In this document: piece by piece, positions 20,246-24,579 of the stretch
Position numbering within the stretch: the stretch's first letter is position 1
Layout of the letters: each line of letters starts with the position of its first letter
Source: Orrella dioscoreae
GTDB taxonomy: Bacteria > Pseudomonadota > Gammaproteobacteria > Burkholderiales > Burkholderiaceae_B
DNA length: 64,000 nucleotides
Assembly: GCF_900089455.2 (NCBI RefSeq)
Contig: NZ_LT907988.1
Coordinates: 372,001 to 436,000, forward strand
Direction: 5' to 3'
Position numbers and translations under genes: made by a program
Notes under the pieces: generated by a model
The model's database searches: none
Told to the model about the DNA's origin: nothing
The model's input: only the letters and a program-made list of their open reading frames with translations

Positions 20246-20707
20246 TCAGGCCCGTTTCACGAAGTGCTTCAGCAGGGTGCTGAGCAGCGGGCCGGTGGCG
20301 CTGAGTTCGTCCAGGTGCGCGCCTGACAGCAGCCGCAACTTGGCTTCGGTCAGTTCGGTGACGCGGATGTTGATGCGGCGCCGGTCGCGCGGATCGTGCT
20401 CGCGGCTGACCAGGCCCATGCGCTCCAGGCGGCCGACCAGTTCGCCCGCGCTGTGATGGCGCAGCAGCATGCGGTCGGCGATTTCGCCGACCGTCAGCAC
20501 GTCGTCGGGAGAGCCCTTGATGGCCAGCAGCACCTGGTGCTGCTGCGGCGTGAGGCCATTGGCGGCGGCGGCCGCTTCGCTGAAGGCGAGGAACTTGCGT
20601 AATTCGTAGCGCAGCTTGGACAGCGCAATGAAGTCCGCCTTGCCGGGAACGCGCTGCGGCACGGCGGGCACGACGGGACTGTGTTCGGTGTCTGGCATCG
20701 CGGACAT
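20246..20707 (-). CDS. MarR-family transcriptional regulator
   Basis: 153 residues from ATG 20707 (ATG 20698 also possible). The core is a winged helix-turn-helix: LTPQQHQVLLAIKGSPDDVLT, then the recognition region VGEIADRMLLRHHSAGELV and the wing HDPRDRRRINIRVTE. MarR dimers repress transport, stress or catabolic genes and respond to small phenolic or lipophilic ligands. It is convergent with tctA (41-base gap) and divergent from the DUF445 gene, either of which might be a target. Confidence 0.88.
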   Translation of the reverse strand: MSAMPDTEHSPVVPAVPQRVPGKADFIALSKLRYELRKFLAFSEAAAAANGLTPQQHQVLLAIKGSPDDVLTVGEIADRMLLRHHSAGELVGRLERMGLVSREHDPRDRRRINIRVTELTEAKLRLLSGAHLDELSATGPLLSTLLKHFVKRA

Positions 20708-22108: not shown

Positions 22109-22198
22109 TTGCTTTCGCCGGAAGATAAAAATGCCGTCAAACAACGCCGTTCGTTTCTGAAGAACGCCACGCTGGGCGCCGCTGCAGGCGGCGCGCCT
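22109..22198 (+). pseudogene. Remnant of a twin-arginine signal peptide
   Basis: The frame starting at TTG 22109 encodes QRRSFLKNATLGAAAGGA, a convincing twin-arginine export signal, after a short polar stretch. It has no ATG in frame, and it runs directly into the palindrome and sigma-54 promoter region of the next operon with no matching mature protein. I read it as the 5' end of a lost Tat-exported gene left behind by a deletion. The frame stays open to 22417 but the rest has no recognisable protein character. Confidence 0.5.
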
Positions 22199-22204
22199 CA
22201 CCAC

Positions 22205-22222
22205 TGCGTGGCATGCCACGCA
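22205..22222. promoter_or_regulatory. Perfect 18-base palindrome, candidate enhancer-binding site
   Basis: TGCGTGGCATGCCACGCA is perfectly palindromic and lies about 170 bases upstream of the sigma-54 promoter, within the range where bacterial enhancer-binding proteins bind. A related sequence with GCATGCCA occurs about 50 bases further on (around 22261-22268), and GCGGA-T-TCCGC (22239-22249) is another inverted repeat between them. Confidence 0.6.
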
Positions 22223-22387
22223 AATGCTGCACGACGGTGCGGATTCCGCCCCGCCAACGTGCATGCCAGCCGTGTCGCCCGTGCCATGAAGCGGGGTGCA
22301 CCACTTATCTTGACCTGCCGCAAACCCGCGCCGATAAAGGCCTGGCGGGGATGCCGCGTATCAGCGCAGGGAAGACCTGGAAATACC

Positions 22388-22403
22388 TGGCACGCAACTT
22401 GCA
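22388..22403 (+). promoter_or_regulatory. Sigma-54 (RpoN) promoter
   Basis: TGGCACG-CAAC-TTGCA matches the -24/-12 consensus TGGCACG-N4-TTGCW exactly, with GG at 22389-22390 and GC at 22401-22402. Transcription would start near 22414, giving a leader of about 70 bases before the receptor gene at 22486. Confidence 0.85.
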
Positions 22404-22485
22404 TGGTTGAAGCATGAACGGCTGCCGCCGTGTCCGCTGGGGCAAGATTTCATGCGCCTCTTGAATCACTCAAGGGATCACTGCG

Positions 22486-23718
22486 ATGCATCACCTCATG
22501 GGTTTTTCCGCCGCCAGCGCGCGGCGTCTGTGGCGCGCCGTCGTGGGCGGGGCGCTGGCCTGTCTGGCGGCCACCGCCAGCCTTCCCAGCCTGGCGGAAA
22601 AGCCGTTGCGCATCGGGGCGCCCCTGGCACTGAGCGGCGGGCTGGCCGAGGAAGGCAAGAAGCAGCAGGTGGCCTACCAGCTTTGGCTCGAACGCATCCA
22701 GGCCCAGGGGGGCATCATGATCGGCGGCGCGAAAGTGCCGGTCGAGCTGGTGACCTATGACTACCAGTCCGACGAAAAGCGTGCGCAGCAATTGGCCGAG
22801 CGCCTGATCACCCAGGACCGCGTCGATTTCATGACCGCGCCCTTCGGGTCCGGCCATGCCAAGGTGGTCGCCGGCGTCGCCGAGCGCTATGGCGTGCCGG
22901 TGATCGCGGTCGCCTCCAGCGAGCCCGTGCACAACCAGGGCTACAAGCATCTGTTCGGCACCCTGGCGCCCTCCGTGGGGCTGATCGACACGATGATCGA
23001 GTATTTCACGGCGCAGCGGCCGGGGACCGGCACGATCGCCGTGCTGGGGCGCGACGACGTCTTTCCCAAGGTGATGGCGACCACGATGTCCAGGCAGGCG
23101 GCGAAGGCCGGCTTGAAGGTCGTGTACGACACGCTCTATCCCGTGGGCACGATGGACTTCAGCGCGGCGCTTACCGCGATCAAGGCGGCCAGGCCGGACT
23201 GGATATACGTCACCGGCTACACCAGCGATCTCATCCTGGCGCGCAAGCAGATGGCCGACCTGGGCGTGGATGCGCCCATCCTCACCATGGTGACGGGTCC
23301 CGCCTATCCCGAGTTCGTCGATGGCCTGGGCCCGCTGGCCGAGAACGTGACCAGCGCGACGTGGTGGCACGCGTCGCAGACCTATTCCTCGGATGACGTG
23401 TTTGGCGGAACGCAGGCCTTTGCGCAGGCCGTGCGCGACCGCACCGGCAAGGATCCGGACTACGTCCATGCCTCGTCGGCCGCGGCGCTGGTGGTGCTGC
23501 AGAAGGCGGTGGAGGCCGCGGGCACGCGGGACCGTGCCAAGGTACGCGATGCGCTGGCGGGGCTGGACGTCATGACTTTCTATGGTCCGGTGAAATTCCG
23601 CGAGGACGGCATGAACATGAATCGCGAACTGCCCATCATCCAGATCCATGACGGCAATCCCGTCGTGCTGTTCCCCGTCCCCGCGCAGGCCTCCGCGTTG
23701 CGGCTGAGCGCGAAGTGA
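22486..23718 (+). CDS. Branched-chain amino acid/amide-type ABC substrate-binding protein
   Basis: 410 residues. The signal peptide runs to about residue 37 (LPSLAEK). The mature protein is a type I periplasmic receptor of the Leu/Ile/Val or amide class: LRIGAPLALSGGLAEEGKKQQ at the start, VELVTYDYQSDEKRAQQLAERL, then FGSGHAKVVAGVAERYGVPVIA. No permease or ATPase gene is nearby, so it is an orphan receptor. It is the first gene after a perfect sigma-54 promoter and is followed 30 bases later by a PhyH dioxygenase, suggesting a nitrogen-controlled uptake and oxidation pair. Ligand unknown. Confidence 0.88.
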   Translation: MHHLMGFSAASARRLWRAVVGGALACLAATASLPSLAEKPLRIGAPLALSGGLAEEGKKQQVAYQLWLERIQAQGGIMIGGAKVPVELVTYDYQSDEKRAQQLAERLITQDRVDFMTAPFGSGHAKVVAGVAERYGVPVIAVASSEPVHNQGYKHLFGTLAPSVGLIDTMIEYFTAQRPGTGTIAVLGRDDVFPKVMATTMSRQAAKAGLKVVYDTLYPVGTMDFSAALTAIKAARPDWIYVTGYTSDLILARKQMADLGVDAPILTMVTGPAYPEFVDGLGPLAENVTSATWWHASQTYSSDDVFGGTQAFAQAVRDRTGKDPDYVHASSAAALVVLQKAVEAAGTRDRAKVRDALAGLDVMTFYGPVKFREDGMNMNRELPIIQIHDGNPVVLFPVPAQASALRLSAK

Positions 23719-23748
23719 ATCAACGGAAAGAACGACCGGAGACTTGCC

Positions 23749-24579
23749 ATGCCCAAGCACCTGAGCCCCGCGCAGATCGATGATTTCCGCCAGCACGGCT
23801 ACGCCTATCCCTTCGATGCCTTCGACGCACAGGAGGCCGCGCGGCTGCGCGCCCGCATCGAGTCCTACGAGCAGCAGAGCGGCTACGACGCCAACCAGAC
23901 GCTGAAGATCAAGGGGCACCTGGCCTTGCCCGACCTGGTGGCGTTGGGCCGCCATCCTCGCATCCTCGACGCGGTCGAGGACCTGATCGGCCCCAACATC
24001 CTGCTTTTCGGCGCCTCCATCTTCGCCAAGGACGGCGGCGATCCGCGCTACGTCTCCTGGCACCAGGACTCGGCCTATTTCGGCCTGGATCCGCACGACG
24101 AAATCACGGCATGGGTCGGCCTGACGGACTCGACGGAGGAGAACGGCTGCCTGCGCGTGCTGCCCGGCTCGCATCGGGGGCCGGACTTCAAGCATGAGGA
24201 AACCTACGCGCCGGACAACATGCTGGCCAAGGGACAGTCGCTGATCGGCATCGATGAAAGCCGGGCCGTGTCGATGCCGCTGCGCGCGGGACAGTTTTCG
24301 CTGCACCACGAGCGCACGGCGCACAGCTCGTTGCCCAACCGGAGCACGGGCCGGCGGATGGGGTTCGCGTTCTTCTACGTGCCCACCCATGCGCGCCTGC
24401 TCAAACGGCGTGGCCGCGCCACGCTGGTGCGGGGTGTGGACGAGTACGGCCATTGGGATGCCGACGACCTGCCCACCATGGACCTCGATCCGTTGTCGAT
24501 GCAGCAGCTCCGTTCCGCCTGGGGCAGCTACAAGGATGGCAAGGTATTGCAGGCCGCGGACATGTCGGCGCAGGCCTGA
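23749..24579 (+). CDS. Phytanoyl-CoA dioxygenase (PhyH) family Fe(II)/2-oxoglutarate oxygenase
   Basis: 276 residues, cytoplasmic. The metal-binding HxD is SWHQDS (His105, Asp107). The distal histidine is probably His192 in RTAHSSLPN, and the 2-oxoglutarate-binding Arg follows at 202-203 (GRRMGF). Cofactor residues therefore appear complete. Bacterial members hydroxylate small molecules such as ectoine, amino acids or aminophosphonates, with succinate and CO2 as by-products. Position in a sigma-54-driven unit with an amino-acid-type receptor suggests hydroxylation of an imported nitrogen compound; that is inference. GGAG lies ahead of ATG 23749. Confidence 0.88.
   Translation: MPKHLSPAQIDDFRQHGYAYPFDAFDAQEAARLRARIESYEQQSGYDANQTLKIKGHLALPDLVALGRHPRILDAVEDLIGPNILLFGASIFAKDGGDPRYVSWHQDSAYFGLDPHDEITAWVGLTDSTEENGCLRVLPGSHRGPDFKHEETYAPDNMLAKGQSLIGIDESRAVSMPLRAGQFSLHHERTAHSSLPNRSTGRRMGFAFFYVPTHARLLKRRGRATLVRGVDEYGHWDADDLPTMDLDPLSMQQLRSAWGSYKDGKVLQAADMSAQA

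Follow-up and report, generated by a model that had tools for sequence, protein, structure and literature searches.

What do a receptor gene and an oxygenase gene do together when they stand behind a sigma-54 promoter and a perfect 18-bp palindrome, with neither a permease or ATPase gene nor one for an enhancer-binding protein seen around them? We addressed this question for one such pair in Orrella dioscoreae (Table 1), beginning with the two genes and their promoter and proceeding to the palindrome, to a second set of genes elsewhere in the same genome and to the corresponding loci of other bacteria. The window is the whole stretch of DNA that was analyzed (64,000 nucleotides, or 64 kb), and its receptor is referred to as receptor A.

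Table 1. Positions of the genes and of the known and predicted sites discussed in the text (numbered within the window unless marked as genome positions).
Feature	Position	Strand	Remarks
Operator O1, perfect 18-bp palindrome TGCGTGGCATGCCACGCA	22205-22222		Read as a MarR-family operator (predicted)
Candidate operator O2 AAGCGGGGTGCACCACTTAT	22289-22308		Rank 2 in window, 12.3 bits
Sigma-54 promoter TGGCACGCAACTTGCA	22388-22403	+	Exact match; GG 22389-22390, GC 22401-22402
Receptor A, periplasmic binding protein, amino-acid/amide type	22486-23718	+	PF13458 (Peripla_BP_6), E 9e-63
PhyH-family Fe(II)/2-oxoglutarate oxygenase	23749-24579	+	PF05721, E 3e-35; 30 bp 3' of receptor gene
MarR gene	genome 91054-91563		Followed by PRK06031-type phosphoribosyltransferase

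The receptor-oxygenase pair and its sigma-54 promoter

The gene types proposed in a preliminary description of this DNA, and the intact metal residues of the oxygenase, were borne out by the PF13458 and PF05721 matches and by the invariance, across 15 homologs, of H105, D107, and H192 (the HxD...H triad), to which the 2-oxoglutarate residue R203 can be added. Because the metal residues are kept, the enzyme is predicted to hydroxylate rather than to halogenate; a SyrB2-type halogenase, in which the metal aspartate would be alanine or glycine, was rejected on the retention of Asp107. The structure closest to the AlphaFold2 model of PhyH (pLDDT 86.6) is ThoJ, which is also closest by sequence (30% identity). 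Against the NCBIfam models PhyH scored 24.8 of 336.5 bits for ectoine hydroxylase and 24.2 of 500 bits for methylphosphonate hydroxylase, and a urea, leucine, ectoine, or phosphonate identity was rejected as all family-model scores were far under cut-off. Since PhyH reaches no curated equivalog, its substrate cannot be named. As had also been described, no permease or ATPase gene was seen around the pair, and no enhancer-binding protein gene is nearby, all of the Sigma54_activat matches in the genome (seven strong and four weak) falling outside the window. The 5' fragment of a TRAP DctP-type receptor gene with a Tat signal (KQRRSFLKNATLGAAAGG) occupies positions 22142-22194 of the window; this gene is intact in many genomes of the family (e.g., L011:1498-2592), and a DNA search of the Orrella genome found no intact copy.

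The sigma-54 promoter, TGGCACGCAACTTGCA, has GG and GC at -24/-12 with consensus flanks and lies 82 nt 5' of the receptor ATG. The preliminary description took it for a full consensus match and left its conservation to be checked, and the claim is upheld by the exactness of the match, by enrichment across the genome and by conservation. TGGCACN5TTGCW is found at 15 sites in the whole 4.85-Mb genome, vs. three for the reversed control, and the neighboring genes include glnA, glnK-amtB, dctA, urtA, and those for urea carboxylase and allophanate hydrolase. When species genomes were scanned, 35 loci with receptor homologs (838 kb) were obtained, in which the strict form TGGCAYN5TTGC was counted on both strands 25 times, vs. 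zero reversed, mostly at the start of units of the receptor/PhyH/LivHMGF system. Ten of the PhyH loci are readable, in that receptor A is first in its unit and its upstream DNA can be read, and eight of these retain a sigma-54 site; in the exceptions, L099 and L121, there was no clear site 5' of the receptor gene. By this comparison the predicted promoter is maintained before the orthologous genes, with exceptions. In Cupriavidus, the region 5' of the amidohydrolase gene contains the variants TGGCAGAGTTCTTGCG and TGGCAAAGTTCTTGCG, and a search of the region upstream of the Azoarcus operon found no sigma-54 site. The Orrella genome has one copy of the RpoN gene, and, besides the sites next to the genes named above, it contains further strict sigma-54 sites (L059, L060, L062, and L065).

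The palindrome and a MarR-family regulator

The palindrome TGCGTGGCATGCCACGCA is perfect, as originally described, and lies where it was placed, with 165 bp between it and the -24 box downstream. An 18-bp palindrome is not significant by itself (two perfect ones are seen in the 64-kb window vs. 1.05 expected), and it is through comparison with other genomes that this one gains significance as a candidate site. A 20-bp operator matrix trained solely on genomes other than that of Orrella placed O1 at rank 1 in the window with 17.0 bits, a score equaled by two random matches in one simulation (5 Mb) and by two in another (2 Mb). O2 is weak, there being 13 random matches that good in 2 Mb. The center of O2 lies 89.5 bp before the -24 box and the proximal operator of Cupriavidus 89.5 to 90.5 bp before it; for O1 the distance is 174.5 bp and for its Cupriavidus counterpart 194.5 to 204.5 bp. 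A second operon in the Orrella genome, the sister operon described below, has operators 134.5 and 29.5 bp from its -24 box.

The motif GNGGYATRCCNCNYA occurs at nine places in the genome (reversed control, zero). Position 2 is A or T at four of them, namely one at a MarR gene, two at the sister operon and the window palindrome, while the remaining five have C at this position and overlap long open frames; within its own genome, then, the A/T form marks three promoters only. The preliminary description had suggested a genome search for the palindrome and for a cognate enhancer-binding protein; the search did find a motif shared by three promoters, though the tie is to the MarR gene and not to an enhancer-binding protein. 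In several betaproteobacteria the motif ATRNGTGGYATRCCACNYAT is present once or twice upstream of the sister operon. On the strength of these comparisons, we consider the palindrome very likely to be functional.

The MarR promoter of Orrella carries GTGGCATACCCCCTA, with the motif at genome position 90982, and this site reaches only 7.7 bits over the 20-bp matrix, with a match on one side. In Azoarcus and Cupriavidus the motif is situated between the amidohydrolase gene and a divergent MarR-family gene. MarR is encoded in all nine loci that hold the operator and its flank, the other copies being 61-70% identical to that of Orrella; L157 and L158, with upstream regions that do not contain the motif, gave no MarR match. 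From this co-occurrence, and from what is known of the family, we propose that the MarR protein binds the operators and acts as a repressor. Compared with the named NCBIfam MarR models, the protein falls far under every cut-off. A GntR/FCD regulator, whose gene precedes the amidohydrolase gene in one locus (L158), was discarded as the binder, the upstream region there being without the operator. Another MarR-family gene is found near the pair, at 20246-20701 of the window (minus strand), the product of which is distant from the MarR protein of the system (32% identity over 69 residues).

A sister operon and its arrangement in other bacteria

The sister operon is at ~107-119 kb in the genome, about 280 kb from the receptor A-PhyH pair, and begins with its own sigma-54 site, TGGCACGGTTGTTGCT. 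It comprises genes for an amidohydrolase, the MoCo large, FAD, and 2Fe-2S subunits of a hydroxylase, a CoxG-like protein, a second receptor (receptor B), LivHMGF and an AllG-like protein. The Mo-hydroxylase is of the three-subunit, CO-dehydrogenase type, and its subunits all stay below the equivalog cut-offs (highest score, 548.5 of 950 bits). Receptors A and B are 66% identical and diverge around residues 141-150; the next paralog of receptor A is 32% identical, and 16 further receptors of the superfamily are encoded in the genome.

A homolog of PhyH (47-71% identical) adjoins the receptor gene in 14 of the 35 loci. In the receptor tree, 13 of these 14 PhyH-adjacent receptors form one clade (support 100/99) together with the window receptor and that of L118, a locus at a contig end, and it is to this clade that the name receptor A applies; the fourteenth locus, L121 (Ectothiorhodospiraceae), has a tandem receptor pair that falls outside it. 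Receptors followed by LivHMGF, to which the name receptor B applies, are placed elsewhere in the tree. In Sneathiella, a Rhodospirillales MAG and others, the receptor A-PhyH unit comes first and the receptor B-LivHMGF unit after it, each having its own sigma-54 site. In Azoarcus and Rubrivivax, for which gene names were transferred by similarity from the annotated Orrella operon, the amidohydrolase, Mo-hydroxylase subunits, CoxG, receptor A, PhyH, receptor B, and LivHMGF are encoded in one apparent operon. A close ortholog of PhyH was absent from the other sampled genomes of Orrella's own family (next best, 283 bits vs. 465), and no receptor was seen in the flanks that were read for the PhyH matches listed there.

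The Alphaproteobacteria have a similar architecture with a different candidate operator. An element resembling TAGTTACAATAGTTATAGTTACGACT adjoins the -24 box of both units in L090, L091, L094, L095, and L117. In many lineages an AllG-like (PF06545) gene is in or beside the cluster (L107:9106-10230, L121:2082-3332, and L123:3290-4414), and no other subunits of oxamate carbamoyltransferase were seen with it in those clusters.

The transporter missed in the preliminary description is most likely the LivHMGF permease of the sister operon, and the "orphan" receptor A probably uses it. The idea of a self-standing unit without a transporter is not supported, as the sister operon has LivHMGF and the two parts are adjacent, or within one apparent operon, in relatives.

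A proposed nitrogen-scavenging regulon and its alternatives

We consider it likely that receptor A-PhyH is a detached part of a single uptake-and-breakdown system whose other pieces, the sister operon and the MarR gene, lie elsewhere in the genome, because the receptor A clade is linked to PhyH, because receptor A-PhyH adjoins receptor B-LivHMGF or shares an operon with it in other bacteria and because receptor B is the closest paralog. Several observations count against it: the lack of a clear sigma-54 site in L099, in L121 and before the Azoarcus operon, the weakness of O2, the low matrix score of the site in the Orrella MarR promoter, and the different element carried by Alphaproteobacteria. 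Under nitrogen limitation, RpoN and an activator, probably NtrC, would open both sigma-54 promoters, while MarR, occupying O1/O2 and the sister operators, would repress them until released by the compound or a breakdown product. Receptor A would then collect the compound and pass it to the LivHMGF permease that it has in common with receptor B, and PhyH would hydroxylate it, perhaps in this order, as a step toward ring opening and release of nitrogen. NtrC is a plausible activator of both promoters; the best NtrC box before the window promoter has 10 of 14 positions, a weak match reached by 9% of shuffles, and the glnA box has 12 of 14. With its conserved sigma-54 promoter and the nitrogen genes that share this type of site, the pair is probably nitrogen-controlled, so that this part of the earlier proposal of a nitrogen-controlled capture-and-oxidation unit is supported, the self-standing part being the one that is not. 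Our guess is that the substrate is a nitrogen heterocycle, since the proteins that accompany the pair in the system include a Mo hydroxylase and an amidohydrolase, together with an AllG-like protein and a phosphoribosyltransferase. That the whole is an undescribed nitrogen-scavenging pathway, in which an Fe/2-oxoglutarate oxygenase and a Mo hydroxylase are combined with two paralogous receptors per permease and gated both by sigma-54 and by a dedicated MarR protein that binds upstream of the sigma-54 promoters, we hold to have an even chance of being correct.

The palindrome could instead be the upstream activating site of an enhancer-binding protein (NtrC or a dedicated activator), with the pair a self-standing capture-and-hydroxylation unit. 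In the window and in Cupriavidus, operators precede the -24 box by 90 to 205 bp, a usual distance for an activator site, there are seven enhancer-binding protein genes in the genome, and the fixed spacing of ~90 bp to the -24 box, which counts against our own explanation, also fits an activator site. Nevertheless, we think this reading unlikely: the motif is present without a recognizable sigma-54 site in Azoarcus, Lacisediminimonas, and the MarR promoter of Orrella, it accompanies a MarR gene at every locus that holds the operator and flank, and one of the sister-operon sites is just 29.5 bp from the -24 box. An NtrC box in particular was rejected, as the palindrome is unlike the glnA and glnK boxes. 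We thus prefer a MarR operator to a sigma-54 enhancer as the best reading of the palindrome. Less probable still is that the palindrome is a product of chance, or a leftover of the neighboring truncated TRAP receptor gene, and that the sigma-54 promoter alone is functional. Chance alone would give a window about one perfect 18-bp palindrome, and this one starts ~10 bp past the end of the TRAP remnant, yet intact TRAP genes in relatives are without it, and chance was dropped as an explanation on the match to the motif of other genomes (with its few random equals), on the first rank given by the matrix and on the restriction of the motif to promoters of the system.

It is also feasible that receptor A has a different Liv-type permease as its partner, or that it is a sensor in the periplasm, and that no functional tie links it with the sister operon. 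The 16 further superfamily receptors make it likely that other permeases are available, and the divergence of receptors A and B around residues 141-150 could be taken in the same sense. This too we regard as improbable, since receptor B, followed by LivHMGF, is by far the closest paralog, since the two receptors stand side by side with LivHMGF in relatives and since operator and promoter type are common to both units. Under our preferred explanation, a detached part of one system, what seemed an orphan pair becomes a testable part of a defined regulon, whose candidate regulator and operators, together with the permease and the partner enzymes, are distributed over three places in the genome, and the substrate, if found, would add to the nitrogen sources known for such bacteria.

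In our assessment this would be a doubly controlled nitrogen-scavenging regulon with an unusual enzyme set, within the known kind of nitrogen-controlled uptake and catabolic systems. It resembles the nitrogen-controlled uptake and breakdown of urea (by a UrtA-type receptor, urea carboxylase, and allophanate hydrolase) in its Peripla_BP_6 receptor and in sigma-54 sites that have the same form in the Orrella genome, and differs in having an oxygenase instead of the urea enzymes, as well as MarR-type operators; receptor A, at 79 of 492.75 bits, falls far short of the UrtA (TIGR03407) cut-off. The sister operon, with its Mo, FAD, 2Fe-2S, CoxG-like, amidohydrolase, and AllG-like components, is similar to catabolic operons in which a Mo-hydroxylase of the CO-dehydrogenase/xanthine-dehydrogenase type is combined with LivHMGF, and in the literature searched we found no description of a gene set that couples a PhyH oxygenase and two receptors to such an operon. 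With the HpaR- and SlyA-type MarR proteins, which are local regulators of catabolic genes, the system shares the MarR domain, the divergent gene with a palindromic operator between, and the operator in the regulator's own promoter, but here the operators precede sigma-54 promoters by 30 to 205 bp. To our knowledge, MarR-type operators up to ~200 bp upstream of sigma-54 promoters would be an unusual means of adding substrate control to nitrogen control. The HxD...H triad is common to PhyH and to ThoJ, its closest solved structure, and to other PhyH-fold hydroxylases; ThoJ acts in the biosynthesis of a peptide natural product, whereas the PhyH of the window is tied to an uptake receptor.
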